DNA from: Candidatus Gracilibacteria bacterium CG17_big_fil_post_rev_8_21_14_2_50_48_13
GTDB lineage: Bacteria > Patescibacteriota > Gracilibacteria > 1-14-2-50-48-13
Assembly: GCA_002783265.1 (NCBI GenBank)
Contig: PFFG01000007.1
Span: 61,329-125,328 of the forward strand
Reading direction: 5' to 3'
DNA length: 64,000 bases
Each line of letters starts with the position of its first letter. Position 1 is the first letter of the stretch. Position numbers and translations under genes: made by a program. Positions 17,482-47,686 of this stretch are shown piece after piece. The notes under the pieces are model-generated. The model did not search any database, was not told the origin of the DNA, and saw only the letters and a list, made by a program, of their open reading frames with translations.

Positions 17482-19629
17482 ATGCTTCGTCATACAAAAG
17501 AACAACTGGTGACCTCCTTCGTTTTTCTCGTATTTTGGAGCATCCTCGGTACCATGATGTATATGTTCCTGCTGTTTCCTCAAGTCCATACGCGACTCAC
17601 AGATTTACTGCACGACGAACAGGCCACTTTGCCTACTCACGTCACTCTCGTGGGTATTGATCAGAAAAGCCTTTCTTCGGAATCAGAGGGCGGGCTGGGT
17701 CGATGGCAAGATTGGCGACGGTCGTACTATGCAAAAACCATCGAGCATCTTCGGGCAGCTGGGGCGACGGTCATAGGCGTCGATGTCTTTTTTTCCGAAC
17801 CCTCTTCGGAAGGACAGGCGAAAACCATCAAGAATTTTCTTGAACGCCAAGGTATTCCCTTTGATAGCGAAAGCGTTTCTGCCTTTGCCGAGGAAGAAGA
17901 TCGTGCGCTTCGGTCACAGATTGAAGGCAAAAATGACATCGTCTTGGCGGCGGATGCAACAAAAGGGATGCCTGCACTGGTGCCTGATGCACGCATAACC
18001 GGCAGTGGTGCCATGCTTGGTAGCGTTACTCTTGTGGAAGACAGTGATAATATTTTACGCCGCGTCCCCTTATGGACTGGCAGTGCAGTGGTTCCCCACT
18101 CCTTTGCCTTTCGACTTTTTCTCGCATGGACAGGTGCAAAAGAAGGTGATTTTCGCAGAGAGCAACAGCACATTGCCTATACAGGGCCACAGCTACGCAG
18201 TATGGGATCTGGCACCAAATTGCCGCTCTGGAATTTCACGACGGATACAGAAGGAACCCTGCCCGTTCGTTTTCGAGGTGCTCCACTAACGAGGTTTCCT
18301 CTGATTTCCTTTGTCGATGCGTACAACAACGCTTTTGACCCGTCCCTTGTGGCCGGTAAAATTGTTTTAATCGGAGAAGTGGATGCAGGTCTCCACGACA
18401 ACGTGTATACGCCTGTTTCCTTTGGCCAGAAGCGCCCTGGAGTTGAGGTGCACGCTCAGGCACTTGAGTCGCTCATCAATAACGATACCACCACTCCTGC
18501 CCCTATTTGGTATCATGCACTTTTCACCGCCGTACTCCTGATGGTACTCCTTGTGGTCGGCATGAAGTTTGGAGCCGTTTGGGGGGCAGTTATGCTCTTC
18601 TTCTTACTGGCGAGTGAATTTTTCTACACACTTTGGGCCTTTGATGCGAGTCGACTGACCCTGAGTAGTTGGTACATTGGTCTCGCACTGGTGGGCACCT
18701 ACGCAAGTCTTCTCGTGTACAAGCTTTTTCTAGAACAACGTGATAAAAAGCAGGCAATAAAAGCATTCTCCCACTATGTCAGCGACAAAGTAGCCAACAT
18801 GATGATTCGTCAGCCCTCGCTGCTTCGCCTGGGTGGTGAAAAACGGACGCTTTCCGTGAGTTTTACGGACATTGCGAATTTCACAACCATTTCGGAACAA
18901 CTGACTCCAGAGCAAATCAGTGACTTTTTGCGCATTTATCTCGAGCGCATGACCAATATTGTGCTTTCTGAGGACGGGACCCTCGATAAATACATTGGTG
19001 ATGCCTTGATGTGTTTATACGGCGCCCCCCTTGCCTTTGACGATCATGCACTGCGCGCTTGTCGTGCGGCACTTGCCATGCATGCAGCGATTCCTGATAT
19101 TCAGCGTGCACTTCCTATGACGCTTCCTCCTGACCTCCCCCTAGCAATTCGCACAGGAATAGGTACAGGTGAAATGGTCGTCGGAAATTTTGGTTCCCAG
19201 AAGCGCTTTGACTACACCGCCATTGGAGACACTGTAAATACGGCCTCTCGCCTCGAAGGCGCAAATAAACAATATAGTAGCCAGATTTGTGTAAACGAAG
19301 CAACGTACCTTGCGGTGCAGGATGCCTGCGTTTTACGTACGCTTGATATTGTTCGCGTGAAAGGCAAACACCAGCCCGTCAAAATTTATGAACTGCTGTC
19401 CATGCGGGATGCAAGTAGCACCATGATGGAAAAAATGAGTGAGGAATTCGAGCGAGCATTTCTCCATTATCAGGGGAAGGATTTCCTCACGGCTCGTGAT
19501 GTTTTTGAGTCTATTCATGCGACCTTTGGCGATGCAGTTTCCGCCATGTATGTCCACCGGTGCAACACCTATCTGGAAAAGCCACCTGCAGCCTCGTGGG
19601 ATGGTGTATATGTCATGACTTCGAAGTAG
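17482..19629 (+). CDS. CHASE2-domain class III adenylate/guanylate cyclase
   Basis: 715 aa. An N-terminal membrane helix (about 12-33) is followed by an extracytoplasmic CHASE2 sensor (about 45-335, with VTLVGIDQKSL, VIGVDVFFSEPS and the GKIVLIGEVDAG segment typical of the domain). Three or so membrane helices come next (about 345-420), then the catalytic domain (about 450-640). The domain shows SVSFTDIANFTTISEQ with the first metal aspartate, DKYIGDALMCLYG with the second, and AIGDTVNTASRLEG. The lysine in DKYIGD fits adenylate cyclase specificity. A short tail resembles the C-terminal helix region of CHASE2 cyclases. It likely makes cAMP in response to an external signal; no cAMP receptor was seen nearby. 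Confidence 0.93.
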   Translation: MLRHTKEQLVTSFVFLVFWSILGTMMYMFLLFPQVHTRLTDLLHDEQATLPTHVTLVGIDQKSLSSESEGGLGRWQDWRRSYYAKTIEHLRAAGATVIGVDVFFSEPSSEGQAKTIKNFLERQGIPFDSESVSAFAEEEDRALRSQIEGKNDIVLAADATKGMPALVPDARITGSGAMLGSVTLVEDSDNILRRVPLWTGSAVVPHSFAFRLFLAWTGAKEGDFRREQQHIAYTGPQLRSMGSGTKLPLWNFTTDTEGTLPVRFRGAPLTRFPLISFVDAYNNAFDPSLVAGKIVLIGEVDAGLHDNVYTPVSFGQKRPGVEVHAQALESLINNDTTTPAPIWYHALFTAVLLMVLLVVGMKFGAVWGAVMLFFLLASEFFYTLWAFDASRLTLSSWYIGLALVGTYASLLVYKLFLEQRDKKQAIKAFSHYVSDKVANMMIRQPSLLRLGGEKRTLSVSFTDIANFTTISEQLTPEQISDFLRIYLERMTNIVLSEDGTLDKYIGDALMCLYGAPLAFDDHALRACRAALAMHAAIPDIQRALPMTLPPDLPLAIRTGIGTGEMVVGNFGSQKRFDYTAIGDTVNTASRLEGANKQYSSQICVNEATYLAVQDACVLRTLDIVRVKGKHQPVKIYELLSMRDASSTMMEKMSEEFERAFLHYQGKDFLTARDVFESIHATFGDAVSAMYVHRCNTYLEKPPAASWDGVYVMTSK

Positions 19630-23489: not shown

Positions 23490-24965
23490 TTAACCGACAC
23501 TCCCTTCAAGGGAGATCGTGAGTAGTTTACGGGATTCGACAGCAAATTCCATGGGAAGCTGATCGAGGACGTCACTGCAGTAACCGTTGACAATGAGCGC
23601 TGTTGCATCTTCCCGACTAATGCCCCGCTGCTGCATGTAGGCGAGAAGCTCTTCGCTGACCTTTGATGTAGTTGCTTCGTGTTCAATGCTACTGGAAGCC
23701 GCAGAATCCTCGAGATACGGTATAGTATTGGCGCTGCATCCATCACCGATGAGAAGGGAGTCACACTGCGAAAAGTTGCTCGCACCCGTTGCGGTCGGCA
23801 TCATACGCACTAAACCTCGATAGGTATTGTTGCTTTTGCCAGCGGAAATCCCTTTAGAAATGATGCGACTCTTGGTTCCCTTCCCTATATGTATCATTTT
23901 CGTGCCTGTGTCCGCCTGCTGCATGGCTCGTGTGACCGCAACAGAATAGAATTCGCCGCTACTATAATCGCCTTTTAGGACAACAGATGGGTACTTCCAG
24001 GTGATGCTGCTACCCGTTTCTACCTGTGTCCAGGAAATCTTGGCAAAATCTTCAGCGAGGCCACGTTTGGTCACAAAATTGTATATGCCCCCCTTTCCAT
24101 TTTCGTCGCCAGGATACCAGTTTTGCACGGTGGAGTATATTATTTCTGCCCCCCTATGGGCAACAAGCTCTACCACAGCGGCATGCAGTTGATTTTCGTC
24201 ACGTTGTGGCGCCGTACACCCCTCCAGATAACTGACATAACTCCCTTCATCGGCGATGATCAGTGTGCGCTCAAACTGGCCGGTCCCCGCTGCATTGATG
24301 CGGAAATAGGTGGAAAGATCCATTGGGCATCGCACACCCTTCGGAATATATACAAAGGTTCCATCCGTAAACACTGCACTGTTGAGGGCCGCGTAGTAAT
24401 TGTCGGTCACGGGAACGACCGTACCGAGGTACTTCGCCAGCACCTTCGGATATTTGCGGATTGCCTCACTAATAGAACAGAATATCACGCCCGATTTGCG
24501 CAGTCGCTTTTGAAAGGTCGTTGCCACAGAAACACTATCTACAACTGCATCGACGGCCACATTGGCAAGTTGTTTTTGTTCATCAAGCGGAATGCCGAGT
24601 TTTTCAAAGGTCGCCAAAATTTCCGGGTCGACCTCATCGAGACTCCCCAGTTTTTTCTTTTGTTTGGGCGCTGCATAATAAATGATCTCCTGAAAGTCTA
24701 TGGGTGGATACACCACATTTTGCCATGTGGGTTCTTGCATTTTTTGCCAAGCACGAAAGGCAGAGAGGCGCCACTCCAGCATAAAGTCGGGTTCCTGTTT
24801 TTTGGCAGAGATCAGGCGAATAACCTCTTCCGAAAGACCTTTTGGAGCGAGATCTTCGTCGAAATTTGAGGTGAAACCGTAGGCGTAATCCTCCGTCGTT
24901 GCTTTCTGAATGATATCCTTTTCGCTTTGCATACAAGAACATATATTACCGTCAATTTGTACCAT
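23490..24965 (-). CDS. sufB: SufB, Fe-S scaffold subunit
   Basis: 491 aa, close to the usual 465-495. It is the main scaffold subunit on which clusters form. Characteristic parts are the DYAYGF N-terminal region, [19 protein letters not shown], the [10 protein letters not shown] segment, [30 protein letters not shown] and the C-terminal [17 protein letters not shown] region. The start at 24965 is preceded by AGGTAG; an alternative ATG at 24932 gives an N-terminus more like other SufB proteins but lacks a ribosome site. It is the first gene of sufBCDSU, divergent from the HTH/GHKL pair across 130 bases. Confidence 0.95.
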
Positions 24966-25081: not shown

Positions 25082-25098
25082 ATAGGAGAAAGATTATG
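25082..25098 (+). promoter_or_regulatory. Ribosome binding site duplicated before both genes of the HTH/GHKL pair
   Basis: The 17-base string ataggagaaagattatg occurs here (ATG at 25096) and again at 25785-25801 (ATG at 25799). AGGAGA sits about 7 bases before each start. It decides the start of the first gene over the upstream TTG at 25075, and the second copy contains the first gene's stop codon, so the two are translated as a matched pair. Confidence 0.8.
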
Positions 25099-25788
25099 AC
25101 TCAAGCTGATACGCCTGAATGGCATGCAGTGAAGAGATTCTCGAAAGAGAAAAAAATGAAGCGTGCCACGCTTTATGCTTTGCTCGAAATTCCTGCGAGG
25201 ACCATGCAAATGCAACTGACAAATCAAACGTTGACTCCAACGTCAAAGGCAAGATTGTACCTTCTCACAAAGGCAACAATTTTTAAGCCCATGACAGATG
25301 AAGAAAACATTGAATTTGCTCGGCAGCAAATGAATCCTCCAGAAGGCATAATACCCTTCATTCAGGAATCGACAGCAATATCCGGAGATTCAATGGAAAA
25401 AATACGTTCGAGCAAGAAACAGCTCATACGTGTTTATCTTGAAGAACTCATTGGAAAAGAAAATGGTTCGTTAGAAACTCTGCAAAGCATTTGGCAACTT
25501 TTGCCAGCAAATGACTTTAAGAAACCTAATGAGCAAATTTTTAAAGAAGATGTGCGTGAGACGGCCAAACTTATCCGTCTTTTAACTGCACATCTGCAAT
25601 ATTATGCTATGCATGAAAACGAAAACCTGCGGCATGAGATTCATGCCTATCTGGATTCGAGCATGTCACAGCTTACTATCGCATTCGAGTTATTCAACAA
25701 GGCTTACCCCTTGGTTGCACTCGGAAACTTGCTCCGCCATCGGCAGGTGCAAGAATTGTTTCTACAAAAAACATTGAAAGAAGAATAG
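25096..25788 (+). CDS. Small HTH-like protein paired with a GHKL ATPase
   Basis: 230 aa. The first 60 residues (EWHAVKRFSKEKKMKRATLYALLEI... then TLTPTSKARLYLLTKATIF) look like a helix-turn-helix of the XRE/lambda-repressor shape, with the recognition-helix region around residues 20-45. The rest is all-helical without membrane segments and not recognised. The identical ribosome site and 10-base gap to the GHKL ATPase gene argue that the two proteins work together. It may bind DNA and recruit or regulate the ATPase; this is inference. It could also simply autoregulate the pair. Confidence 0.75.
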   Translation: MTQADTPEWHAVKRFSKEKKMKRATLYALLEIPARTMQMQLTNQTLTPTSKARLYLLTKATIFKPMTDEENIEFARQQMNPPEGIIPFIQESTAISGDSMEKIRSSKKQLIRVYLEELIGKENGSLETLQSIWQLLPANDFKKPNEQIFKEDVRETAKLIRLLTAHLQYYAMHENENLRHEIHAYLDSSMSQLTIAFELFNKAYPLVALGNLLRHRQVQELFLQKTLKEE

Positions 25789-25798
25789 GAGAAAGATT

Positions 25799-27835
25799 AT
25801 GGGTGTAGTTGCGACAGATAAGCGTTTCGAAATTGAGATGGGAATTGATATTACTGAAGTGATGCGGACATATATCCGCAACGTCGCTTCGGGAAACGAT
25901 GCCATCTACCAAGCAATTCGGCAAGCGCTAGAAAACGTTGTCGATGCAGGCGGAACCTATCTCAAGATTTTACTCGATGAAAAAACCAAAACCATTACAT
26001 TTATCGACAATGGTTGCGGCATGGGTAAAAAAGAACGTACCGGGTTTCACTCCCTGCACAAGGGATCGAAGGATGGTATCAATACCATCGGTCGAAATAA
26101 CAGTGGACGTGTGGCATTCCTCGCTTTGGCCGAAAGTGTCACAGTAGTATCACGCACGATGGAAAATGGAAAATTAACATTGTTTGAGTTTCCGTTTTCC
26201 CTCGATGTCTTTAGTAAAATCTTTGAAGCTGCCGCTTTGAAGAAAACCATCGATATCGCCCCCATCAAAGCTCACGCTCTGGAAAAGCATATCGAAAAAA
26301 CCGGTACAGTCATTGTGCTGGAAGGTGTGAATTGGGATAAGGTACACGGAATTCAATATCTCCGTCGTAACCTGCCAAACTATTTTTCCAGAAAATATGC
26401 CAAGATGATTCTTTTGAATGGATCCCCACTTCCTGAAAAACAGCAAGTTGGTGAACCATTAATCTATTCCGTGGAACACCCCATTCTGGGGACCATTGAT
26501 GTGGATCTCTTCCTCGTCAGTGAGATGGATAAAAGCGCCGAGCGCGACCACGAGGTCAGACTTGGAGCGAATAACCCCATTTTTAAGACATGGCAGGTAT
26601 TCCTGCAGAAATACGTTACCCCTGAACAAATTCGCTTTGTTCCAGTGAAGCTACTCAATGAGCAACTTGGAGGAACGATTTTGATCAAGGGTCTGAACAA
26701 GTTTCGCGAACACTCCAGTCACGATTTGCTTGATGAACGCTTTGTTGGCTCAAAAGAGCAAGCAGCACTCATCGACTTTCTGGCAACGGATCTTGGTCCG
26801 AAACTTGACGCAGCGTTCCAACACTTGAAAGAGGCGGAACGTCAAGAAGAAGATTTAGCATGGAAGGCAACCATTACGGAAGCCCTCAATCCGATCTTCA
26901 AATACGACCCGAAGAAGCACAACCCCCCCGCGGGCAAAGGCTCTCAGTTGGGTGCGAAAGATCTTGTAGAAAAGAAAAAACCTGAGCCGCAAGGTCTCCA
27001 GGTTAATCATCGCGAGATTGAGTTACTGCCCGGCGAAAACCAGATTTTTGAAGTAACGCGCAAAAGTGGTACTTCAGGAAAATTTGTGTGGGATGTAACC
27101 CAAGCTGGTGGTGTATTTCAACCAAAACCAAAGACCGGCGCATCCATGGTGAATTATGAAGCAGGTTCTACTCCTGGTCATTATAGCCTTGGTGTTGCTG
27201 ACATGAGTAACCCTGAACTTTGTGCTACCATTAGCATCAATATCGTCGAGGAAAAAACTGTCACCATTAGCCCCAAACGGGTGAAAATACAGCAGGGCAA
27301 AAAGCAGGCTTTTCGCCTTGCCAATAGCCCTACTCAAGATGTGCAATGGTCCGTAGAAGGTCCAGGGAAAGGGTTTAGCATCAAGCCTGCAACAGGTTGT
27401 GCTATAACCGTATCCATACCGAAAAATGCAGCACTGGCTCAATACCAGTTAGTTGCACGGTATGGGGATAAAGAGGTTCGCGAGACTTTTATAGTCGAGG
27501 AACCCCCAAAAAGTGGAGAATACCTCTTAATTGAGGACACTCTCTACATTTTGGAAGCTCCAAGAGGCGGGGAAGATCTACCATATGTGGCCAAAGTCGA
27601 TCCTGACGCTGGATTGATTCGAGGAACGAAAACGCCTGTTATGTTAGTGAATCGCGAGCATTCGATTATAAAAGGATGTTCGAATAAATACCGCCTACAA
27701 TTGTTGATTCCAGGACTCGTTGCAGCACATGCAACCTATGCGCTTCAGCGAGATATCTGGAAACAGCCAGAAATGGCACCTCAACGTATGGAAACTTTGC
27801 GCCTAAAGGTGACAGAAGAACTCCAGAAACAGTAG
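25799..27835 (+). CDS. GHKL (MORC/Hsp90-like) ATPase with Ig-like domains
   Basis: 678 aa. The N-terminal Bergerat ATP-binding fold shows the N-box QALENVVDAGG (about 42-52, with Glu, Asn and Asp), the G1 box DNGCGMG (70-76) and the G2 region IGRNNSGRVAF (97-107). A transducer-like S5 domain follows (to about 250), then a charged helical part (about 340-365). Residues about 400-485 and 490-570 read as two Ig-like beta domains, and a 100-residue C-terminal domain closes the chain. No signal peptide is present, so the Ig-like parts are intracellular. GHKL ATPases of this kind (MORC, MutL-like) occur in bacterial defence and DNA-remodelling loci. Its exact role is unknown. A strong terminator follows. 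Confidence 0.82.
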   Translation: MGVVATDKRFEIEMGIDITEVMRTYIRNVASGNDAIYQAIRQALENVVDAGGTYLKILLDEKTKTITFIDNGCGMGKKERTGFHSLHKGSKDGINTIGRNNSGRVAFLALAESVTVVSRTMENGKLTLFEFPFSLDVFSKIFEAAALKKTIDIAPIKAHALEKHIEKTGTVIVLEGVNWDKVHGIQYLRRNLPNYFSRKYAKMILLNGSPLPEKQQVGEPLIYSVEHPILGTIDVDLFLVSEMDKSAERDHEVRLGANNPIFKTWQVFLQKYVTPEQIRFVPVKLLNEQLGGTILIKGLNKFREHSSHDLLDERFVGSKEQAALIDFLATDLGPKLDAAFQHLKEAERQEEDLAWKATITEALNPIFKYDPKKHNPPAGKGSQLGAKDLVEKKKPEPQGLQVNHREIELLPGENQIFEVTRKSGTSGKFVWDVTQAGGVFQPKPKTGASMVNYEAGSTPGHYSLGVADMSNPELCATISINIVEEKTVTISPKRVKIQQGKKQAFRLANSPTQDVQWSVEGPGKGFSIKPATGCAITVSIPKNAALAQYQLVARYGDKEVRETFIVEEPPKSGEYLLIEDTLYILEAPRGGEDLPYVAKVDPDAGLIRGTKTPVMLVNREHSIIKGCSNKYRLQLLIPGLVAAHATYALQRDIWKQPEMAPQRMETLRLKVTEELQKQ

Positions 27836-27843
27836 GTGCTTCG

Positions 27844-27870
27844 CCCTCCGAGAAATCGGAGGGTTTTTTT
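27844..27870 (+). terminator. Terminator after the GHKL ATPase gene
   Basis: CCCTCCGA and TCGGAGGG form a perfect 8-bp stem with a GAAA loop, followed by seven Ts, 8 bases after the stop codon. Confidence 0.92.
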
Positions 27871-27948: not shown

Positions 27949-30786
27949 TCATTGGTACATACGTCGTTCATTGACCAGACGCTGTTCGTTTACGAGATAC
28001 CAACGGATTGCCTGGCGAACCTCTTTTGGAATGTACGGAATATGATCATGCATCACCTCAAGTTGTACACCATTTTCATACCAGAAAGCTGTAGTTCTGA
28101 AGAATGTTGTTACCTTACCCTGCGCTACAGTATTGTGTGCCTGAGCTTTACCCCACCGCAAGACAGGCATTTTGACCGAATTAATCGCAGTGACAGGTGC
28201 ATCCTGTAGTTGATTCTCAGGAACTACATACAAAATGGAATTGAGCGAATCCGTGAGTCGCGCAAGTTCATATGGTTCAAGAATGTTACCAAAAATGGTT
28301 CTCGCAATTGAGGATAGCTGCCTTGCAGTGAGACCAAAACTATATGTGGAACGTCCATCATCGACGCGCTCTTGCATAACAGTGAGCAAAAAGTACTGCA
28401 ACCGGTTGATGGCCAGCTTTTTTCCACCGGGCAAATCCAATGTCATCACGATTTTCGCGAAATCCGTTCGGTTATGTATACCGAAGGTATGCAGAAACAA
28501 CGTATGGATTCTCTCTGACATCTGTATTTCACCATCTACAACATGGAGATCTAAATCTACCTCCTCCACAAGTTGCTTTTCCTTCGGCGGAAGTACTTCA
28601 GCTAACTCCTGAAGCGTTCTGAAGGTTCGTTCTGTCTTTTTTGGCGTATTCTTTTTTGGCAAAACTACATGTTGCTTCGCAGGTGCAGGTGATTCTAGAG
28701 AAACCACCACCTCCGCTTTAGGTTTCTGGGAGAAGTCCATACGACTTTCCAATTTCATGAGGATCACCTTATAGGCTTCGATAATTTTGAAGGCGGCATT
28801 CCAAGGATCCTCTGACGAAACATTCAGTTTTGTAATAAGCTTTTCACTAAGCAATCGGTATTTACTAAAGAGGGTCATGGCCACCTCAATGAGCTTCTGC
28901 TGTTCATACAGTTTGTCTCGGGTGTTTGAGTCTGCAAGATGTAATTGCTGTCGATCTGCATCAGTATAAAGCCCCTCGGTTGAGATACCGTAGAATGTTT
29001 TCCTGACTATATGATCAAAGTTTGCAACTTGATTAGAGAGATCTTCACGAGACGCAATTAACTCTTTGAAGACATCTGTGTTTTTTGAAAGATGATGAAA
29101 CAAATGGATATCATTATGCAATTGCTTCATCAACTGCTCAGATTTCACAAGATCTTTATAGGGCTGCAAATCTTCATAAGTGAGAGATCGAACGTCCAAA
29201 TCCTGTGCGTACTTCATAAGCTTCTGCACCTGAGCCACTGTGTTGACAATTTCAACACTGCGCGCATTTAATCGCGCCTCAGTTTCGATGATACTGACCA
29301 TGTGCTTGTAGGTAACGGCATTTGTTTCATGATCTTCGGTTTTGCCTAAGATAAATTCAAGTTTTTGAATCTCATCACTAATAGGATGTGTTTCAATGGA
29401 TGCTCGTTGTTGCAGTACAGATTTATACATCTCTTTTAGTAGAGCGTGTACTTGCCTGAGGTCCGGTGTAAATTCTTGCAGCACCTCTTCTTCCCGCTCT
29501 TCGTTCTCAAGAAGGCCATCTTCCTCGATCACTGTGGTGTCAGAAAGTTCAGTATATTTCTCGTCATCACGAATTTTTGCAAGAGTCGTAAGCATTTCCA
29601 CAATCTCCTCCGTGGTACGAAGAGGCATGCGAACATGAAACTTTTCATTAAGTTCATCAGCAATTTCTGAAGGTGATTTCCCTTGGTCAGAAAGAATTTC
29701 AAGCTCCTGTACTTCAGCATCAGACTGCCATGGGAATGGTTGATCCGAATCGAGATAGGCCTGACGTTGTTCCGTAATGAGTGACAGAATTTCATCCGAA
29801 GTGGCGTTCACAAACTCACCATCATACTTGCCATTGAAGGTTTCTCCCTCAAGTTGCATGTAGGACATAAACGTTTCACCCACTTTACGGAAAAGTTCAC
29901 CACCTGCTTCCTGCATGCTTTGCCAGGATTTTCTCTTTGTCAATTCGTGGACATTTGCAACAAGACCCTCTGAAAAAAGTGCATTAAACTCACTAGGAGT
30001 AACAGGATTCTTATGCAGAGCTAATTCATTGAGAATTCCTATTTGAAGATCAACGAGGATTTTTATTGCCTGATATTGCATGAAGGAAAAGGCATGCAAA
30101 ACCTCACCAGAGGAGATAGCACTCTTGACCTGCATATGTAATGACATGAGCAAATGACTCTTCATGAGCAATGCATATTCCTCTGTCCGTACATGTTCCA
30201 CTACTTCCAAGCTACCAGGATCAAGCTCTTCCTCATCGAGGTCTTCATCTGTACTATCGATCATTGAGGCGCTGAAATCGTCAATCGACGGCTGTTCAAC
30301 GTTTGATACGTGAAAAGTGGACTGAAGTGGTTCTTCCTCCATTTGCACAGGTTGATATTCCTTTGGAACGTATGCAGGTAGTGCTCGAATTCTTCTCCCC
30401 TCTTTATCAAGGAGCTCAGCCAAATACGCCTCAATATTTTTGTAACTAACATTGGTTGATGCATAGCGCACTTCACCTGCAAAGTTCGTTAATGTTTTTC
30501 GGACAACGGTACAAAATACATCGATGTCTGTCACGACAAGACTTTGTCTGCCAGAATCCTTTGAAATGATGCTTTTAATTGCCTCCCTCGTAGTATCAAG
30601 GTATTTCAATATGGTTCCTACGGCAGCTTTAATCTTAGTCGATTGAATCTTATCCTCTCGATTCGGATTATTCCGAAATACACGTCCGGAGCGAACGTAA
30701 TCGCGAAGAAGTGCATATTCCTCATCGAGACGATTCAAGAGGTACTCTTTCTCAACAACAATCTTTTTTTTTGCCTTCTTTGGCAT
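27949..30786 (-). CDS. Large helical orphan protein, 945 aa
   Basis: The start is taken at the ATG at 30786, preceded by GAGGGGC; an in-frame ATG 27 bases upstream has no ribosome site. It begins MPKKAKKKIVV, a basic leader, then is almost wholly helical and charged with an acidic stretch (DSTDEDLDEEELDPG) near residue 190. A basic-Pro linker around 715-745 leads to a C-terminal domain of about 200 residues (HTLFLHTFGIHNRTDF onward) that looks globular. No signal peptide, membrane segment or known domain. It is convergent with the GHKL gene and divergent from the coiled-coil array. Overall shape resembles the 1665-aa and 943-aa proteins, but I cannot show sequence kinship. Confidence 0.8.
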   Translation of the reverse strand: MPKKAKKKIVVEKEYLLNRLDEEYALLRDYVRSGRVFRNNPNREDKIQSTKIKAAVGTILKYLDTTREAIKSIISKDSGRQSLVVTDIDVFCTVVRKTLTNFAGEVRYASTNVSYKNIEAYLAELLDKEGRRIRALPAYVPKEYQPVQMEEEPLQSTFHVSNVEQPSIDDFSASMIDSTDEDLDEEELDPGSLEVVEHVRTEEYALLMKSHLLMSLHMQVKSAISSGEVLHAFSFMQYQAIKILVDLQIGILNELALHKNPVTPSEFNALFSEGLVANVHELTKRKSWQSMQEAGGELFRKVGETFMSYMQLEGETFNGKYDGEFVNATSDEILSLITEQRQAYLDSDQPFPWQSDAEVQELEILSDQGKSPSEIADELNEKFHVRMPLRTTEEIVEMLTTLAKIRDDEKYTELSDTTVIEEDGLLENEEREEEVLQEFTPDLRQVHALLKEMYKSVLQQRASIETHPISDEIQKLEFILGKTEDHETNAVTYKHMVSIIETEARLNARSVEIVNTVAQVQKLMKYAQDLDVRSLTYEDLQPYKDLVKSEQLMKQLHNDIHLFHHLSKNTDVFKELIASREDLSNQVANFDHIVRKTFYGISTEGLYTDADRQQLHLADSNTRDKLYEQQKLIEVAMTLFSKYRLLSEKLITKLNVSSEDPWNAAFKIIEAYKVILMKLESRMDFSQKPKAEVVVSLESPAPAKQHVVLPKKNTPKKTERTFRTLQELAEVLPPKEKQLVEEVDLDLHVVDGEIQMSERIHTLFLHTFGIHNRTDFAKIVMTLDLPGGKKLAINRLQYFLLTVMQERVDDGRSTYSFGLTARQLSSIARTIFGNILEPYELARLTDSLNSILYVVPENQLQDAPVTAINSVKMPVLRWGKAQAHNTVAQGKVTTFFRTTAFWYENGVQLEVMHDHIPYIPKEVRQAIRWYLVNEQRLVNERRMYQ

Positions 30787-30878
30787 GTTTGCCCCTCGAA
30801 TAGTGTTCTTCATGAATAGTTCATAAATTAATTCGCTAATTCTCTACAATATTATATACATTCTGTCAATTTATTATG

Positions 30879-30909
30879 TTGACATTTTTTTATTTTAGTT
30901 TTATATACT
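30879..30909 (+). promoter_or_regulatory. Promoter of the first coiled-coil array gene
   Basis: TTGACA, 17-base T-rich spacer, TATATA (or TATACT two bases on), about 40 bases upstream of the start codon at 30949. The spacer holds TATTTTAGT, a string also seen upstream of the gene at 35131. The same intergenic region carries the start of the divergent 945-aa gene. Confidence 0.65.
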
Positions 30910-30948
30910 TCCGCTTTTGATCATACAAAATGAGGAGAATGATTAGGT

Positions 30949-31653
30949 ATGTTAAAGATTACCGAGTTTATTTCTGACTTTTTTGTCCGAGAGGACATGA
31001 ATGTAATAGAAAAGAGAGTCATTGAGCGTGATTCCGCTATCTATGATGCAATCTACTCAGAATTTAACGATCAGGACTCGTTGCCTGAGACCTTTGAAAT
31101 CACACATGTTCAACGGATCCTCTCGCGGCTCATGAGTCAAAATCAGATAGTTGAATTAAGTAATTCGATTATCCAAGAGAAGATGAAGCGATTGAAGCAT
31201 GCTGAGAACTGGTTTCTCAAACCTCAGTACCAATCGACTATCAAAAAAGAAGGACGTGACGCGAAGTATCTCAAGCATGTACAATATACCTTTGTCCGGT
31301 ATCTCTGGGACAAAAAAATTTTTACAACAGAAGATCTCTATCGCCACCATGCAAAATACATGCAAAATGCACGTATTATGCCTGTAATGAAGCAAGCGCA
31401 GTCACCATCAGTAGTTTCAATGGGCGAAATTGTTACCATGCTGTCAAAGTGGGAACAAACGCTTGCTGACTACAAAGAAAAGATTAAGGGCCTTGAACAG
31501 ACTGTTGAAACCCTGAATCAGACCAATCATTCTCTTCAAACGAAGATTGAAGAGCTTGAAGGAAATCAGAAGGAACCACAAAGTGTCATGACACCAGAAG
31601 AGGTGCAGGATATGGTTGCCAAACAATTTCCCCTTCTCAGAGAACATCTGTAG
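30949..31653 (+). CDS. Array protein A: helical N-domain plus C-terminal coiled coil (234 aa)
   Basis: The N-terminal 150 residues are mixed helical with aromatic and basic clusters (AENWFLKPQYQ, YLWDKKIFTTEDLYRHH) suggestive of a winged-helix-like fold. Residues about 165-215 form a clear coiled coil (LADYKEKIKGLEQTVETLNQ...). No family recognised. It is a single-gene transcription unit with its own promoter and terminator, the first of four such genes in tandem that share the pattern of globular N-part and coiled-coil C-part. GAGGAG lies 13 bases ahead of the start, a loose ribosome site. Confidence 0.75.
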   Translation: MLKITEFISDFFVREDMNVIEKRVIERDSAIYDAIYSEFNDQDSLPETFEITHVQRILSRLMSQNQIVELSNSIIQEKMKRLKHAENWFLKPQYQSTIKKEGRDAKYLKHVQYTFVRYLWDKKIFTTEDLYRHHAKYMQNARIMPVMKQAQSPSVVSMGEIVTMLSKWEQTLADYKEKIKGLEQTVETLNQTNHSLQTKIEELEGNQKEPQSVMTPEEVQDMVAKQFPLLREHL

Positions 31654-31665
31654 AAGACGTTATAG

Positions 31666-31696
31666 CCCTGTGCATATTGCATGGGGTTATTTGTTT
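31666..31696 (+). terminator. Terminator of array gene A
   Basis: CCCTGTGC (31666-31673) pairs with GCATGGGG (31679-31686) with two wobble pairs and a 5-base loop, followed by TTATTTGTTT. The -35 box of the next gene starts within the same stretch. Confidence 0.65.
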
Positions 31697-31760
31697 GACA
31701 AATTTTTTTTATTTAGTATTAGTTGCTTAGATAAAAATACAAAAGGATGGTCGGGGCTGT

Positions 31761-32561
31761 ATGGCAAAAAATTTGTTTTCTTTTATTCCTGGATTTTACT
31801 CAACGTTCAATAGCGCGACTAAGATAAGCGACCTCGGTGGTCCCAAAGTCTTGTTCGACTACATAGCAGAACATGTGATGAACGAAGAATATCTCCCGGA
31901 CAAAAAAAAATTTGGGCTGGTCATTGACTGGGCCAAGGAAAAAGGTGTTTCCATTGACGAGAAAAATCTCCGTAATTGGACAGAGCTTCTCGCCAAAACC
32001 TACGGATTTCTGGTGGCTGGAGAGACACACAAACATGCGTACAGGCATTACTGGACACCTAGTAATCCTGCATACAATGACTTTACTGGTAAAGGGATCC
32101 GGTATTGTTGGGAAAGACGGGTTGTCCAACTTCCAGAGGGATTTAAACCGACGTCACCGATACACCAATCGGTTCAGAAAACACCGTCTCACCCAAAACA
32201 GGACAGTGTCGAAACGATCCCAATCTCCGTCGATGCACTCAAAAAAATTGAGGCTAGACTGAAAGAATCTGAGGCGACAAAGGAGGAGCTTCAACGAATT
32301 CTCGAAGTACAAGGTACTCTCGAGGAGAAACTCGGAGAGGCACAAAAGACAATTTCTGATCTCACGGAGGAGATTAAAACAAACAAAGTGTTGCTGGTGA
32401 CTGCGGAAACCCTTCTGCGAGACACGGAGCAATCAAAAGACCTGAATACTGAAAGCAGAGCATTGCTCAGTAAAGAAATTCAGGAAAAAACTGAGTCCCA
32501 GGTGATCCACCTTATGCTGAGCTTTCCGCATATTGCAGATGCACTAGAGACTCGCAACTAG
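31761..32561 (+). CDS. Array protein B: globular N-domain plus coiled coil (266 aa)
   Basis: Residues 1-120 are a globular domain rich in Trp, Tyr and Phe (including AYRHYWTPSNPAYNDF), followed by a Pro/Ser/Gln linker (about 125-150) and a coiled coil (about 155-245) of the pattern ARLKESEATKEELQRI. No membrane segment or known domain. A TTGACA box lies about 70 bases upstream and a strong terminator follows, so it is transcribed alone. The ribosome site is weak (GGATGG or GGGGCTG). Confidence 0.75.
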   Translation: MAKNLFSFIPGFYSTFNSATKISDLGGPKVLFDYIAEHVMNEEYLPDKKKFGLVIDWAKEKGVSIDEKNLRNWTELLAKTYGFLVAGETHKHAYRHYWTPSNPAYNDFTGKGIRYCWERRVVQLPEGFKPTSPIHQSVQKTPSHPKQDSVETIPISVDALKKIEARLKESEATKEELQRILEVQGTLEEKLGEAQKTISDLTEEIKTNKVLLVTAETLLRDTEQSKDLNTESRALLSKEIQEKTESQVIHLMLSFPHIADALETRN

Positions 32562-32578
32562 TTTGCACCTTTCGTTTG

Positions 32579-32607
32579 AGGACCAGTGTATGGTCCTCTT
32601 TTTTTTA
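32579..32607 (+). terminator. Terminator of array gene B
   Basis: GAGGACC (32579-32585) and GGTCCTC (32593-32599) form a perfect stem with a 7-base loop, followed by eight Ts. Confidence 0.93.
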
Positions 32608-32689
32608 TTTTTCCAATAATATTGACATATTTGATTTCACTAGTAAATTCACACCGGTTCTTTGAAATACATAGAAAGAGGTGACCTGT

Positions 32690-33931
32690 ATGGCAATTGA
32701 TGTTGAAGTCCATGCACCGGAATCATGGAAAAAATTTTCTCCATTGGAAAGGCAGATTTTTGCATTCTGTACCAAGGAAATTCTTCCGCCAGATTTTGAG
32801 TTGCGTGGGTCAGAGTCGTTGATATCTCGATTTCATCGAGCAGGTATCAAGCCAGAAGTATCCTGGGAAAAAAAATGGGAAGAATGCTCTCAACGTCATA
32901 TTGAAAGTATAGTCTACCTGTTTGGCTCTGACGCGATACGTCAGTGCTTTGACCTTGCGGATACAACACTACTTCACCCCATGCTTCTTGAGATGATGGA
33001 GAGGCGGGCGAGAGCAAATACGGTTCTCATCAAGGACATTGCTGCAGTTCCCCGTAAAACGGAACTCCTGCGAAGTCTTACAAAGAACGATAAAGCATCG
33101 CCTGTCGCAATTCAGCCCGTAAATTTTCTCGCTCGACTCAGTGGTTTTAAACTCACCTCTGAAGAGAAGATCATTTACGACAAAGTTGCAAGCCTATTCT
33201 TGCCTGGTTTTATTTTACCGGGGAAAAAGGAATTGGCTCAGCGGTATCCTGAGGTTCTTGCAGAACTACAGGAATCAAACATAGTTATGAGTGCTGGTTC
33301 GCTTCAAAAGCGTATCGAGTACTTTGAGAAACTTGCACAATTTCCTGGATTACGTTTAAGTGAACAACGAAAACTTTGCAGGAAAAATGGCCCGTTTCAA
33401 AAACTTTTGCATGCGAAAATAACGACTCCAGAATCGTTCGCGGCTTTGTGCCAAACAGGTATTGAGGAGGAAACACCTGTCATAGAGCCCGCCGATACGC
33501 AGAACCCTGATGAATTGGCGCAACTGAGGAAACTCTTTGCTCAGCTCAACCAATGCATAGGCACTCTTGTAGAGGAGAAGGAAACGCTCGCAACGCACTT
33601 TCGCGAGTTCCAAGATGCTGCAAAACAAGAGGAGGAAAAAGCAGCAAGAGAACTCAAAATTGTGAAGAAAATGCTCTCACAGAGCCGTGAGCAAGTGGAA
33701 CAACTCCAAGAGATACTGGATGCCGAGCGAGAAGCATCTCAGACACAGATACTGTCGCTGGAAAAAGAAGTACAACACTGGAAGGAGGAAACTCAAGCAG
33801 CAGAAGAACTGCTGTTTAACACAGAAGAAAGAAAGGAAACAAAGATATTGAGTTCTTCTGAGGATTCAGAACGTATACTCGAGCAACTGCGTCATGTCGC
33901 ACCTCGTGTGATACAAATGATACTCCCTTAA
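32690..33931 (+). CDS. Array protein C: globular N-domain plus long coiled coil (413 aa)
   Basis: The ATG at 32690 is chosen because AGAGGTG stands 7 bases ahead; the in-frame GTG 9 bases upstream overlaps that site. The first 260 residues look globular, with a repeated motif feel: KFSPLERQIFAFCTKEILPPDF near the start and KLTSEEKIIYDKVASLFLPGF near residue 160 resemble each other, so the N-part may be two related halves. A coiled coil runs from about 275 to 385. No known domain. It is transcribed alone, with TTGACA upstream and a strong terminator downstream. Confidence 0.75.
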   Translation: MAIDVEVHAPESWKKFSPLERQIFAFCTKEILPPDFELRGSESLISRFHRAGIKPEVSWEKKWEECSQRHIESIVYLFGSDAIRQCFDLADTTLLHPMLLEMMERRARANTVLIKDIAAVPRKTELLRSLTKNDKASPVAIQPVNFLARLSGFKLTSEEKIIYDKVASLFLPGFILPGKKELAQRYPEVLAELQESNIVMSAGSLQKRIEYFEKLAQFPGLRLSEQRKLCRKNGPFQKLLHAKITTPESFAALCQTGIEEETPVIEPADTQNPDELAQLRKLFAQLNQCIGTLVEEKETLATHFREFQDAAKQEEEKAARELKIVKKMLSQSREQVEQLQEILDAEREASQTQILSLEKEVQHWKEETQAAEELLFNTEERKETKILSSSEDSERILEQLRHVAPRVIQMILP

Positions 33932-33938
33932 GAACCAA

Positions 33939-33969
33939 GGCCTGTAGCGTAAAGCTACAGGCCATTTTT
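33939..33969 (+). terminator. Terminator of array gene C
   Basis: GGCCTGTAGC and GCTACAGGCC form a perfect 10-bp stem with a 5-base loop, followed by ATTTTT. Confidence 0.92.
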
Positions 33970-33987
33970 CGTTATAGACGTTCGAAT

Positions 33988-34020
33988 ATATTGACTATAT
34001 CATTTTTTATTATATATATG
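33988..34020 (+). promoter_or_regulatory. Promoter of array gene D
   Basis: TTGACT followed after 16-18 T/A-rich bases by TATATATATG, about 45 bases upstream of the gene at 34062. The start codon has a strong GGAGGTG ribosome site. Confidence 0.55.
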
Positions 34021-34061
34021 TATTAAATCAAAATACAACTATTGACAATTGGAGGTGTGAG

Positions 34062-35036
34062 ATGGCCAGAAAAGCACTTGGCATCATTAAGCAAGTCGTG
34101 GGGTCAGAGCATTGGCGAAACAACGTCATGTCTCTTGATTTCATTCAAAAGCAGCTGAGCAGCAAGGAGCAACTCGTGGACATTCTCCACCGGTTATCCC
34201 CATATCTCAACTGGAACGGGTCGTTACAAGACGGAAGGAATTCACTGGACCAGATTCAACAGGAACTCCGAGGTGCTGATATACATATACCTCAAAAGTT
34301 TGTGGAGAAACTCATCATTCAATTGGTGAGAATCAGTGAATACAACTCTGAGAGCAATCTCAAGCTCCGTCTTCAAATGCTCCGTAAAAAAAAGGATGAC
34401 AGCTATGCTTTTCTGCGATTGGTATGTGTATCACCTGACAATGGAGAGGAAGTGATTCCAACTCATCAGGAGGTAGAGAAACCACCGCAAGAAACGCAAA
34501 TTGAGCTGACCGAAAAGGTGGAAAAGACCCAGGATCCCCCCGCAGACTATATGACTGTTTGGGGACCAATTCTGACACCGGAACGGGCGAAAGTGATCGA
34601 GGAAAATCTGATCACTCTTGAAACAAGAGTCGTCGAACTAGAATCGTCACACAACAAAAAAGTTGCAGGGCTCCAAAGTGAACTCTCAAGGTTTCAGTCT
34701 GAACGAGACTCTATCAAAAAGAATTTTGATGAGAGTCAACGTGAGCTTCAGAAACTTCGAGAAGACAATGCAGGGCTCGAATCGAGCTTGGCGCAATTAC
34801 AACAATCATTGCGATCAAGGAAAAAAGAATGGGAGAAGAAAGATCATGATTTTCATGAGTCACTTCTTTCCCTACAGCAGGAGCTACATGATTTACAAAA
34901 TCAATTAGCAAAAGAATCGGAAGCACATCGGCAAACAAAGGCAAAACTAGAAACCAGCAGCAAGGCAAGCGGTTCGGGAACGAACAATAAGCACCTGATG
35001 GAACAAGCTGAAGCACTGTTTCGTCCCAAAAGCTAA
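34062..35036 (+). CDS. Array protein D: helical N-domain plus coiled coil (324 aa)
   Basis: Residues 1-120 form a helical domain, followed by a Pro/Glu/Thr linker (about 130-165) and a long coiled coil (about 185-300; LESSHNKKVAGLQSELSRFQ and onward). The tail KHLMEQAEALFRPKS may be a short docking helix. No known domain. GGAGGTG lies just ahead of the ATG. Like genes A-C it has its own promoter and terminator; the four do not look alike beyond architecture. Confidence 0.75.
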   Translation: MARKALGIIKQVVGSEHWRNNVMSLDFIQKQLSSKEQLVDILHRLSPYLNWNGSLQDGRNSLDQIQQELRGADIHIPQKFVEKLIIQLVRISEYNSESNLKLRLQMLRKKKDDSYAFLRLVCVSPDNGEEVIPTHQEVEKPPQETQIELTEKVEKTQDPPADYMTVWGPILTPERAKVIEENLITLETRVVELESSHNKKVAGLQSELSRFQSERDSIKKNFDESQRELQKLREDNAGLESSLAQLQQSLRSRKKEWEKKDHDFHESLLSLQQELHDLQNQLAKESEAHRQTKAKLETSSKASGSGTNNKHLMEQAEALFRPKS

Positions 35037-35043
35037 CGATGAA

Positions 35044-35071
35044 GAGAGTCCTCCGTGGACTCTCTTTTTTT
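35044..35071 (+). terminator. Terminator of array gene D
   Basis: GAGAGTCC (35044-35051) and GGACTCTC (35057-35064) form a perfect 8-bp stem with a 5-base loop, followed by seven Ts. Confidence 0.94.
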
Positions 35072-35074
35072 GTT

Positions 35075-35103
35075 TTGTTGACTTTTCTGTATTTTAGTAT
35101 AAA
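35075..35103 (+). promoter_or_regulatory. Promoter of the 943-aa gene
   Basis: TTGTTG, 17-base spacer containing TATTTTAG, then TATAAA, about 30 bases before the start codon at 35131. An overlapping TTGACT gives a shorter spacer. Confidence 0.5.
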
Positions 35104-35130
35104 ACACAACAAATTACATTTCTGTCATCT

Positions 35131-37962
35131 ATGCAACAACGACCAGACCATACAGAACTTTCCTTTGATAATCTTCGTTCGAAGCCCAGTTCTCTAGAAT
35201 CTCTAGGTTACGACAAACGCCAAGCAATGGAAGCTCGTATACTTGAGCTGATTGAAGCAAGTCCATATACAGACCCTTCCCCAGAAGAGTTACTGCAATT
35301 AATAAGCAGTCATGGGTCCTCCATGGATATCCGTCTTGTTATGGCACTCAGCGATGTCCTTCCTACACTTGAAGACAAACGCCGTGAGCTTTTTGCATGT
35401 CTTGGAAGTGAGCAACTTGCCAATATGCCCTCCATTGCGTTTATTCGGTCCCGTATGCTACCCAGTTCACACATTTTCCGACCTGAAGAGGAGGCAGCAA
35501 AAGCAACTATTGATGAGGAAATGCCAGCAAAGATCCTACCGTCATACATCTATCTCTCATCAAACGTTGGTTCAAAAAAACCCTTTGCCATTGCTCTCAA
35601 TTCCTTTGAAACTGCTGCAAGTATTGCTCTGACGCTACAGACAAAAGATACATTGAAGCAAACCTATGCAGATCATGCTCATGCACTTGAAAACAAGACC
35701 ATTACACACCCCCAATTACAACGCGAGACATTTCGTGCGATAAGCACGGGGCACGCACTTCGCGTACTGTTTCAACGACTCTGCACGGTCCAAGGTTTAC
35801 ATGAGAAACTGCGAAGCCATTTTGACTCCTGGCCTTATCGCTACAATGAAGCAGAATCCCAGCACGCTTTTGCACTGCTGAATAGAGTTGATACATCCCA
35901 AGCGACATTTTTTGAACGTGTGGGAACTAAGGTCGTGACAGCGCTCTACCTCGAAAAAAAGGATTTTCGAGCATTGATGCATGAGCGGTTTCCAACCTTT
36001 AGTCTTTACCTTCGACCTGAAGATTTTGGAGCCTTGGACATTGAGATCACACTCCGTCATCGTCAGGTGATTGACACCAGTCGACTCCATGCGATTTTTC
36101 AGGACGAATCTATTTTTGCGCGTTTAGAAGAGGCCTTGCTTAATGGTGAAGATGAACGGTTGAAAGCAGCAGATCTTCTCACCGAGATTGCTACAAACAT
36201 ACGTATTGGACGAAAAAAACCCTCTCAATCTCTTGATCTCAGACCACTTGCTGAAGCATTTGAACATGTCACTTTAGAGAACTACCGAAAGAAAACCGTT
36301 TCAGAGAGAAGAGCGAGCAGTATCTATTATGTTTTTGAAGAAGAAAAACTCAACGCAGTGCAACGTGACGCCTATGCTCTCATAAATAGAGCAACGAGAA
36401 CAGGTGTATGGACGCAAGAAGTCTGCGATACCTTTATGGAACACGAGCATATCTGGCCACAATGGGCAGAACATCGCGCACAGTGGCTCCTCCTTCGCCA
36501 AACCCTTGCGGACCAAGGTGTACCTTTTACACCAAGAAGTGTCTTATCACTTGGAGCAGGGTCTTATGATTTTCTTAAAGCCTACGAGGATGTCTTTGGA
36601 GAAGGATCCAATAGTGACTCTATAGATTGGACTTTCACAGACTATCGCACCAATTTGTTGCAAACAGCGAAAATACTTTCTGAACCAAATGTCCGAAAAA
36701 CTATTGATGCTAGCACACACATCCATACATCAATTCGAGAAGCATTCAGTCATATAGATGCAAACCGTTCCTTCGATATTATCGAGAGTAGCGCACTTGA
36801 AGAATTTGCGCACCTAGATGCATCAAGCCAGTCACAGGAAACTGCGACCTTTCTTGCCAATATTGTCGAACACATGAATTTGGGGGGATTTGCAGTTCTT
36901 GCATGCCCTGCACCTCTTCGAAGAAAGACACTCGAAGCACTGCAAAAGTATGGCGTGCATCCGATTTGCAATGGAGGAAAATTTCGCTTAACTCCACACG
37001 CGAAAAAGTATTTGGAAGATACGATCGACGCCCCAAACAGTTTTGAACTCATTGAGCGGTTTGTGAGTAAGATGCAGTCTCGCCATACTCACGTTATTCT
37101 CCAAAAACGTGAGATGAAGGACACTATCGGGTTGCAACAAGCTCTTGTTACACAGGGAAACTGTTTTGAGGAAAAAATCCCTTCCCGGAAGAATCGTGAC
37201 TTGACCCCGGATATTCGTTTAGAAGATTACGCGCTAAATGATGATGAGCATAGTGCATTATTGTTCGAAATTTTGACCTACACCACATCGGAAGAGGTTG
37301 GCTTGATAGCATTGAAGAAAGTACTTGGTCTTACTGAGCATATCGATGAAGTATTACCACGTATTATCCGCATTCTTCAAAATAAAGATAGTCTCTGGGA
37401 ACAGTGTCTTCTCCTTGTCTTGGATTCCATTGGTGATATCAACGAGGAGATTCGTACGATCTTGCAAGAAGTAATTCAAGCATGTCATGCAGACTTGCAG
37501 GCACGCATTGCACAATTACTCGATCAAGATGAGGAAACTTTCCCTATTGAAGTGGAAGATATCGTCGAGAATCAGCCTGAAGAAGTACGTGGAGCTATAG
37601 AAATCACTCCTGCGCAGTTTCTCACGGATCGAGCACTGCGTGATATGCTGGAAGTTCACCTCATAATTGAGGGAACTGCCCATCGAGATCTTGAACAACT
37701 CAAAATCAGTCTGGCCTATCAACTCCTTGGAGAAGATTTGTTTGAAGTCTGCTATTCTCTGATTATTAAAATGGGGGTCATCCTCACAGCATACCCACTT
37801 ATTCGAAGAGAGCTTCAGCCCACCTACGATGCCTTTGCAGAACTCTGTTTGAATCAGCAAATTTCTACATCTACAGTCTTCTCAGAAGTTGCCATACTCG
37901 ACAACTTGAAAAAGCATCAACTCGTTTCAGAAGCATTTATAGCCGCAAACATGGAAGCATAA
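35131..37962 (+). CDS. 943-aa protein with an embedded SAM-methyltransferase-like domain
   Basis: The N-terminal half (1-460) is helical and unrecognised. Residues about 465-650 look like a class I methyltransferase: VLSLGAGSYDFLKAY (motif I, GxGxxD-like), WTFTDYRTNLLQTAKIL (motif II aspartate region), SFDIIESSALEEFAHL (motif IV position) and LGGFAVLACPAP with a following helix (motif V-VI area). The C-terminal 270 residues are helical with an acidic patch. No signal or membrane segment. A DNA, RNA or protein target cannot be told. It closes the accessory region begun at 25 kb and is transcribed separately from the coiled-coil array genes. The methyltransferase fold is my reading by eye. Confidence 0.72.
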   Translation: MQQRPDHTELSFDNLRSKPSSLESLGYDKRQAMEARILELIEASPYTDPSPEELLQLISSHGSSMDIRLVMALSDVLPTLEDKRRELFACLGSEQLANMPSIAFIRSRMLPSSHIFRPEEEAAKATIDEEMPAKILPSYIYLSSNVGSKKPFAIALNSFETAASIALTLQTKDTLKQTYADHAHALENKTITHPQLQRETFRAISTGHALRVLFQRLCTVQGLHEKLRSHFDSWPYRYNEAESQHAFALLNRVDTSQATFFERVGTKVVTALYLEKKDFRALMHERFPTFSLYLRPEDFGALDIEITLRHRQVIDTSRLHAIFQDESIFARLEEALLNGEDERLKAADLLTEIATNIRIGRKKPSQSLDLRPLAEAFEHVTLENYRKKTVSERRASSIYYVFEEEKLNAVQRDAYALINRATRTGVWTQEVCDTFMEHEHIWPQWAEHRAQWLLLRQTLADQGVPFTPRSVLSLGAGSYDFLKAYEDVFGEGSNSDSIDWTFTDYRTNLLQTAKILSEPNVRKTIDASTHIHTSIREAFSHIDANRSFDIIESSALEEFAHLDASSQSQETATFLANIVEHMNLGGFAVLACPAPLRRKTLEALQKYGVHPICNGGKFRLTPHAKKYLEDTIDAPNSFELIERFVSKMQSRHTHVILQKREMKDTIGLQQALVTQGNCFEEKIPSRKNRDLTPDIRLEDYALNDDEHSALLFEILTYTTSEEVGLIALKKVLGLTEHIDEVLPRIIRILQNKDSLWEQCLLLVLDSIGDINEEIRTILQEVIQACHADLQARIAQLLDQDEETFPIEVEDIVENQPEEVRGAIEITPAQFLTDRALRDMLEVHLIIEGTAHRDLEQLKISLAYQLLGEDLFEVCYSLIIKMGVILTAYPLIRRELQPTYDAFAELCLNQQISTSTVFSEVAILDNLKKHQLVSEAFIAANMEA

Positions 37963-47563: not shown

Positions 47564-47686
47564 AGGTGCCATGGGATCATGAAGTACAGCACTTCAGCGT
47601 ATGCATATCCCGATGCAAAGGCAAGTGAGACTTTTCAATTCCTCTAGCCAAGCGGATCAGCGAACAAAAGACAAACGTACCACGCA

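Follow-up and report, generated by a model that had tools for sequence, protein, structure and literature searches.

ATPases that join a GHKL domain to an S5-like domain dimerize through their N-terminal domains in response to ATP, and many of them work as DNA or protein clamps. Prokaryotic MORC/paraMORC ATPases are tied to restriction-modification (R-M) systems, and the MORC/paraMORC1-5 proteins have an N-terminal GHKL plus S5-like arrangement and a sporadic spread (Iyer et al. 2008; PMC2292703). The GHKL-Shedu protein VcSduA (formerly paraMORC3) protects Vibrio cholerae against phage and is a single protein with an N-terminal GHKL ATPase, a clamp-like middle domain and a C-terminal PD-(D/E)xK nuclease (DUF4263) (PMC12137116). 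Phage RIIA is a GHKL ATPase with a variable C terminus that is tied to counter-defence, with RIIB as its regulator (PMC7824862), and eukaryotic MORC2 has been reported to clamp and compact DNA (PMC12216690). Here we describe a pair of genes, A and B, found in a 64,000-nucleotide stretch of the genome of Candidatus Gracilibacteria bacterium CG17_big_fil_post_rev_8_21_14_2_50_48_13 (contig PFFG01000007.1), referred to as the window. No text describing this module was found among open-licence papers; it is apparently undescribed, and seems to add a further variant to the DNA-directed systems built on GHKL ATPases. Our best explanation, which we hold with evenly balanced confidence, is that A and B are the conserved central part of a conflict system that is directed at DNA and specific to lineages of Patescibacteria, probably an anti-phage or anti-plasmid one.

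Gene A (25096..25788, + strand; an ORF of 230 aa with an ATG start) and gene B (25799..27835, + strand; an ORF of 678 aa encoding a GHKL/S5 ATPase with two Ig-like domains) are adjacent and separated by 10 bases (25789-25798). An earlier note on this DNA had called attention to this spacing, to identical start strings and to a single terminator closing the pair, and all three are borne out. The 17-base ribosome-site/start string ATAGGAGAAAGATTATG of gene A (25082..25098, + strand) recurs exactly at the start of gene B (25785..25801, + strand), and a search of the window that allowed up to 3 mismatches turned up no third site; in a shuffle control, 2 of 100 shuffles reached the same number of loose matches. 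The argument for pairing does not need the shared string, because the distance between the two genes differs among relatives, some overlapping and others lying up to about 120 bases apart. A terminator with a 9-pair stem and a T run follows B (27843..27864, + strand), and a second one in the opposite orientation (27923-27899) serves the convergent gene. The pair is placed between the suf operon, of which sufB (23490-24965, - strand) lies beside it, and a stretch of orphan genes that is followed by a Mur ligase gene. The suf genes have a G+C content of about 0.50-0.54, which falls to about 0.38-0.47 in this region.

B belongs to the GHKL superfamily by its Bergerat fold and its N-box, G1 and G2 motifs, and profile searches confirm the N-terminal fold that the earlier note had assigned. 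Pfam PF13589 (HATPase_c_3) matches residues 38-127 (E=9.2e-9) and is found in 21 of 26 B family members. A family profile built from 20 homologues has human MORC2 as its best PDB match (4.7e-13), with further matches to MLH1 (2.3e-11), MORC3 (6.8e-11) and MutL (1.2e-9) and also to MORC4, PMS2, topo VI-B and Hsp90. In the searches of genomes for homologues, many weak GHKL matches cover the N-box region only and were discarded as MutL/GyrB-like or other GHKL proteins outside the family.

An AlphaFold model of B from a 26-sequence alignment (mean pLDDT 80, pTM 0.52) was used instead of an earlier model from 5 sequences, the ATPase part of which was poor (mean pLDDT 48). Along the + strand it comprises the GHKL domain (about residues 20-175; 25856..26323), also marked by Pfam and by conserved motifs; an S5-like/transducer domain (about residues 204-300; 26408..26698); a long helix of 49 residues (319-367; 26753..26899); two beta sandwiches (about 406-567); and an alpha+beta C-terminal domain (27521..27832), visible in the alignment as well, in which the family motif hxNxxHP reads NREHS in the window copy. 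The beta sandwiches are the two Ig-like domains claimed earlier (about residues 406-482, 27014..27244, and about residues 489-567, 27263..27499) and are modelled with high confidence; Pfam gives weak Ig/PKD matches, in other members only among the 26 scanned. Foldseek aligns the model with the N+M domains of TRAP1/Hsp90, with MORC4 (TMt 0.44) and with the SMCHD1 ATPase module (TMt 0.37); TM-scores taken over the full query are low, because the alignment covers the ATPase half only, and sequence identity in the MORC4 and SMCHD1 fold alignments is only about 14-16%.

The earlier note had also described the N-box, G1 and G2 motifs as complete. The motifs themselves stand: N46 and D49 (N box), D70/G72/G74 (G1, DxGxG) and G98/G103 (G2, GxxxxG) are conserved among the 26 homologues, and N46, D49, G72, G74, G98 and G103 are near-invariant (N and D each in 24 of 26 homologues; G72, G98 and G103 each in 25). 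Completeness fails at residue 42, where Gln replaces the usual glutamate. GHKL ATPases usually carry a general-base (catalytic) glutamate, E29 in MutL and E42 in GyrB, and we take position 42 of B, four residues before the N-box Asn, to be its equivalent. This residue is Gln in the window copy and 7 other homologues (8 in total, among them each of the four from the window's class) and Glu in 16. The general-base glutamate marks the hydrolysing members rather than the fold, and superfamily membership of B is independent of it; hydrolysis by the window protein might hinge on this residue. Gln42 leads to the prediction that window B may bind ATP and close, yet turn over slowly. We consider B quite likely to be a clamp-type ATPase.

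B is closest by profile to MORC and MutL, and shows the GHKL-then-S5-like order that is a MORC trait (AlphaFold, Foldseek) and the sporadic spread of MORC/paraMORC1-5. The MORC S5 motif, GhXhhpXXRhl, was found in 0 of 26 B homologues by pattern search, and by that motif B is not a MORC protein. Ig-like domains and an HTH-like partner, both features of A/B, are not described in the available portion of PMC2292703, and whereas the R-M operons presented there have a helicase or nuclease neighbour, none lies beside A/B. No SFII helicase, nuclease or DNA methylase gene adjoins the window pair, and none is a constant neighbour elsewhere. B resembles VcSduA in its GHKL ATPase and clamp-like middle part but differs in having Ig-like domains, in travelling with A and in having no recognised nuclease, since neither Pfam nor PADLOC gave a nuclease match for it, and its C-terminal part consists of the Ig-like and alpha+beta domains rather than a PD-(D/E)xK (DUF4263) domain. 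Neither A nor B has a match in PADLOC-DB or contains a recognisable nuclease or other effector. With eukaryotic MORC2 and SMCHD1, B has the GHKL-S5 ATPase module in common but no recognised CW, chromo or SMC-hinge domain; a Pfam scan of 26 B members gave no SMC-hinge match.

Gene A encodes an XRE/HTH-like N-terminal domain and a conserved helical C-terminal domain. The former, present in one copy (residues 10-59; 25123..25272, + strand), has a weak NCBIfam Xre match (E=0.014), from which we predict DNA binding; Pfam gave no match to A. The latter (25477..25773, + strand) is common to the A family by alignment and presumably makes the contact with B. A proteins at other loci are between 230 and about 600 aa long, with start codons partly uncertain, and follow one layout, in which one or more HTH-like units lead through a linker to the conserved helical domain; several seem by eye to have two or more such units (for example L016). 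Against a profile built from the C-terminal regions of the remaining A proteins, window A scores 32.1 bits (best of 200 shuffles, 9.0), and with a leave-one-out profile it ranks 1 of 461 neighbouring proteins (E=1e-6). In this test 20 of the 24 A genes rank first. The exceptions are those at L019, L077 and L085, for which homology rests on position, BLAST clustering and other profile matches, and at L087, for which it rests on position and size. By these sequence comparisons gene A forms a protein family of its own. An apparent A-B fusion at L078 (a 1107-aa B frame) was rejected: the frame begins with an extension that is out of frame, and the true A is a separate ORF of 479 aa.

At 24 loci, in at least two classes of Patescibacteria, B is immediately preceded by an A-type gene. 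Because A and B are each homologous across genomes, the pairing is not a matter of chance, and we regard the pair as real with near certainty. The earlier proposal of a two-gene module, an HTH-like protein with a GHKL ATPase bearing Ig-like domains, is thus upheld by its recurrence and by the structural and profile evidence for GHKL/S5, and the neighbourhood survey found an A-type gene at every readable upstream flank rather than B alone in housekeeping surroundings. In the window's class, full or near-full B occurs in 4 of 353 genomes (the window genome, G349, G191 and G235), each with A directly upstream; a deep profile finds full-length B in 3 of 362 genomes of a phylum sample, and the class of G631 has about 16 longer B family members among 381 genomes. 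Two family members come from organisms designated Candidatus Gracilibacteria and Candidatus Peribacteria. In one family, f161, B is present in 14 of 43 genomes, with presence mixed within genera; this count is a lower bound, because a B-negative genome (G1049) has a commonly associated gene, E (below), beside tig at a contig end. Outside Patescibacteria the coverage is one pattern scan of genome contigs, which does not establish absence there.

In the B tree the four members of the window's class form one clade (96/91) and nine f161 members another (100/99). Two further f161 members, G806 and G1050, fall outside the latter on long branches, a placement that may reflect transfer, old duplication or long-branch error. 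Terminal branches of about 1 change per site indicate very high divergence, and the tree is partly vertical. Across the genomes sampled, A/B is a rare, fast-changing, consistently paired module of Patescibacteria.

The strongest evidence for a defence role is indirect and comes from the site that the pair occupies in the class of G631. At nine loci where the flanks on either side could be read (L075, L076, L080, L082, L083, L085, L134, L136 and L137), A/B lies between an H+-pyrophosphatase (HPPase) gene, identified by Pfam (1.2e-273), and tig, which encodes trigger factor. In two related genomes without B (G971 and G994), the same interval holds a SNF2-helicase/methyltransferase fusion of 1061-1093 aa together with small genes and a protein resembling DndB/DpdB (Pfam DndB 1.4e-5, under the curated cut-off; PADLOC DpdB 4.3e-6). 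Two others without B (G1058 and G1055) have the tig-proximal part of this set, G918, also without B, has a nearly empty interval, and G857 has an AbiEi/AbiEii pair beside tig (PADLOC 1.2e-40 and 6.2e-28). The interval is an apparent chromosomal hotspot with alternative occupants, and since A/B alternates there with known phage-defence genes, the pair probably constitutes a defence system, directed at DNA and so far undescribed. The earlier note's hint of a conflict system, a putative function, gains support from this site, and we predict a defence role with confidence at or slightly above the even mark. Two shorter GHKL relatives (G287 and G1012) have type I R-M, C5-methylase, Mrr and Abi_C genes around them; no known defence gene adjoins the window pair.

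Two other gene sets merit a record of their own. The SNF2-methyltransferase and DndB/DpdB-like DGQHR set beside tig (L125:3560-9001, L128:2435-8962, L124:1-3054 and L126) looks like a Dpd/Dnd-like modification-defence cassette of a kind unfamiliar to us. Around an AbiE pair, L129:3-8697 holds six tandem genes of one family, of which a member at L128 contains HNH_repeat-like, homing-endonuclease-associated units.

An alternative that we consider rather unlikely is that the pair organizes or silences the nucleoid of its own chromosome, with B as a bacterial MORC/SMCHD1-type clamp and A targeting chromosomal sites. The GHKL-S5-helix-Ig-like architecture resembles that of MORC/SMCHD1-type ATPases, the location beside tig is fixed across several families of one class, and partly vertical descent would suit such a role. 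However, sporadic presence even inside genera and rapid divergence are a poor fit to a core chromosome function, and cassettes recognised as defence genes take the place of A/B at this same site.

Many A/B loci in other Patescibacteria have flanking genes that we call C, D and E: C combines a coiled coil with a winged-helix-like domain at its C terminus, D has winged-helix-like and coiled-coil parts, and E is methyltransferase-like, all three fold names coming from sequence reading and motifs rather than database matches. A relation of C and D to kleisin or KITE proteins was considered and set aside, a profile search of D against PDB having returned nothing significant, and PADLOC matches of C to LmuB and ZorA (E ~0.005-0.01) were dismissed as coiled-coil noise. 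E was found in 5 of 13 tested B-carrying genomes, where it is usually a neighbour of A/B, but in 0 of 5 B-lacking congeners; several genomes with B, among them that of the window, also lack it.

The window pair is itself followed by about 10 kb of orphan genes (27949-37962). The convergent gene (27949..30813, - strand; 954 aa) has no significant Pfam family and no match in 39 class relatives, and is a possible extra partner. Beyond it lie four coiled-coil genes (234, 266, 416 and 324 aa), with globular N-terminal and coiled-coil C-terminal parts, and a 943-aa gene with the class I methyltransferase-like motif VLSLGAGSYDFL (together 30949..37962, + strand), for which a link to A/B is only possible. 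The convergent gene and the coiled-coil genes resemble C and D in general appearance, but BLAST, HMMER and HHalign showed no similarity between the window's genes and C, D or E, and they are therefore listed as possible members only. Elsewhere in the window, outside this island, 46604-47572 encodes a RhuM plus Fic/DOC domain protein (Pfam 1.4e-20 and 4.7e-14), likely a toxin-type or conflict gene, and 17482-19629 encodes a CHASE2-adenylate/guanylate cyclase protein, which one would seemingly not expect in a patescibacterial genome of small size.

The flanking genes bear on a second alternative, in which A/B would be part of a larger multi-subunit restriction-type system with its effector elsewhere, C, D and E being obligate and B a paraMORC-like switch. 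The recurrence of these genes beside A/B, the match between the C families of two lineages (HHalign E=1e-6) and the absence of E from the B-lacking congeners examined argue for it. We nevertheless judge it improbable: the window neighbours lack detectable similarity to these genes, several loci lack E, no nuclease domain was found, and similarity is inflated by coiled coils.

Least likely of the three alternatives is an accessory module like RIIA/RIIB, derived from a mobile element or virus, with a part in counter-defence, in superinfection exclusion or in maintaining the element. The many RIIA proteins among Foldseek matches of B to viral models, the RIIA-like pairing of a GHKL ATPase with a possible regulator and the AT-richer orphan-gene setting of the window pair would point to it. 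But RIIA and RIIB are phage-encoded with a different partner and no sequence-level relation found to A/B, the likeness to RIIA is that of the common GHKL fold only, no integrase, capsid or other element gene was seen at A/B loci, and our searches of 50,697 phage records, 72,556 plasmid records and viral contigs gave no homologue.

Returning to a DNA-directed conflict system, the evidence that A/B probably serves defence comprises the conserved pairing, the GHKL/S5 unit of B with the published roles of MORC2 and of prokaryotic MORC/paraMORC ATPases, sporadic presence, exchange at the HPPase-tig site, R-M-sited GHKL relatives, the pattern of gene E and high divergence. Against it stand the missing PADLOC match, a window copy with no adjoining defence gene, the lack of a recognisable effector and the weak HTH match, together with the stable site in one class, the partly vertical tree and the failure to find a phage, plasmid or viral copy. 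In the mechanism that we propose, A would bind DNA through its HTH part or parts and recruit B through its C-terminal domain; on ATP binding, two B subunits would close their N-domains as a clamp around the DNA, with the Ig-like and C-terminal domains of B serving as a spacer and as a second dimer or partner contact. As A and B have no nuclease, the most likely outcome would be that the bound foreign DNA is clamped, compacted or silenced, or alternatively held for locus-variable partners such as the coiled-coil proteins and the methyltransferase-like protein.

A bolder version, which we regard as a long shot, is an SMC-free DNA-clamping immune machine in which B would take the part of the SMC motor, C and D would be kleisin/KITE-like, and A would read foreign DNA through a variable array of HTH units; if true, MORC/SMCHD1 silencing would have in A/B a mechanistic relative among bacteria. 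At the level of the conflict system itself, A/B constitutes an undescribed paired ATPase module of Patescibacteria that is tied to a site exchanging defence cassettes. If A and B clamp or silence foreign DNA without cutting it, they would offer a simple bacterial system for MORC/SMCHD1-type action on DNA, and would let one ask whether eukaryotic silencing clamps and bacterial immunity have common roots.
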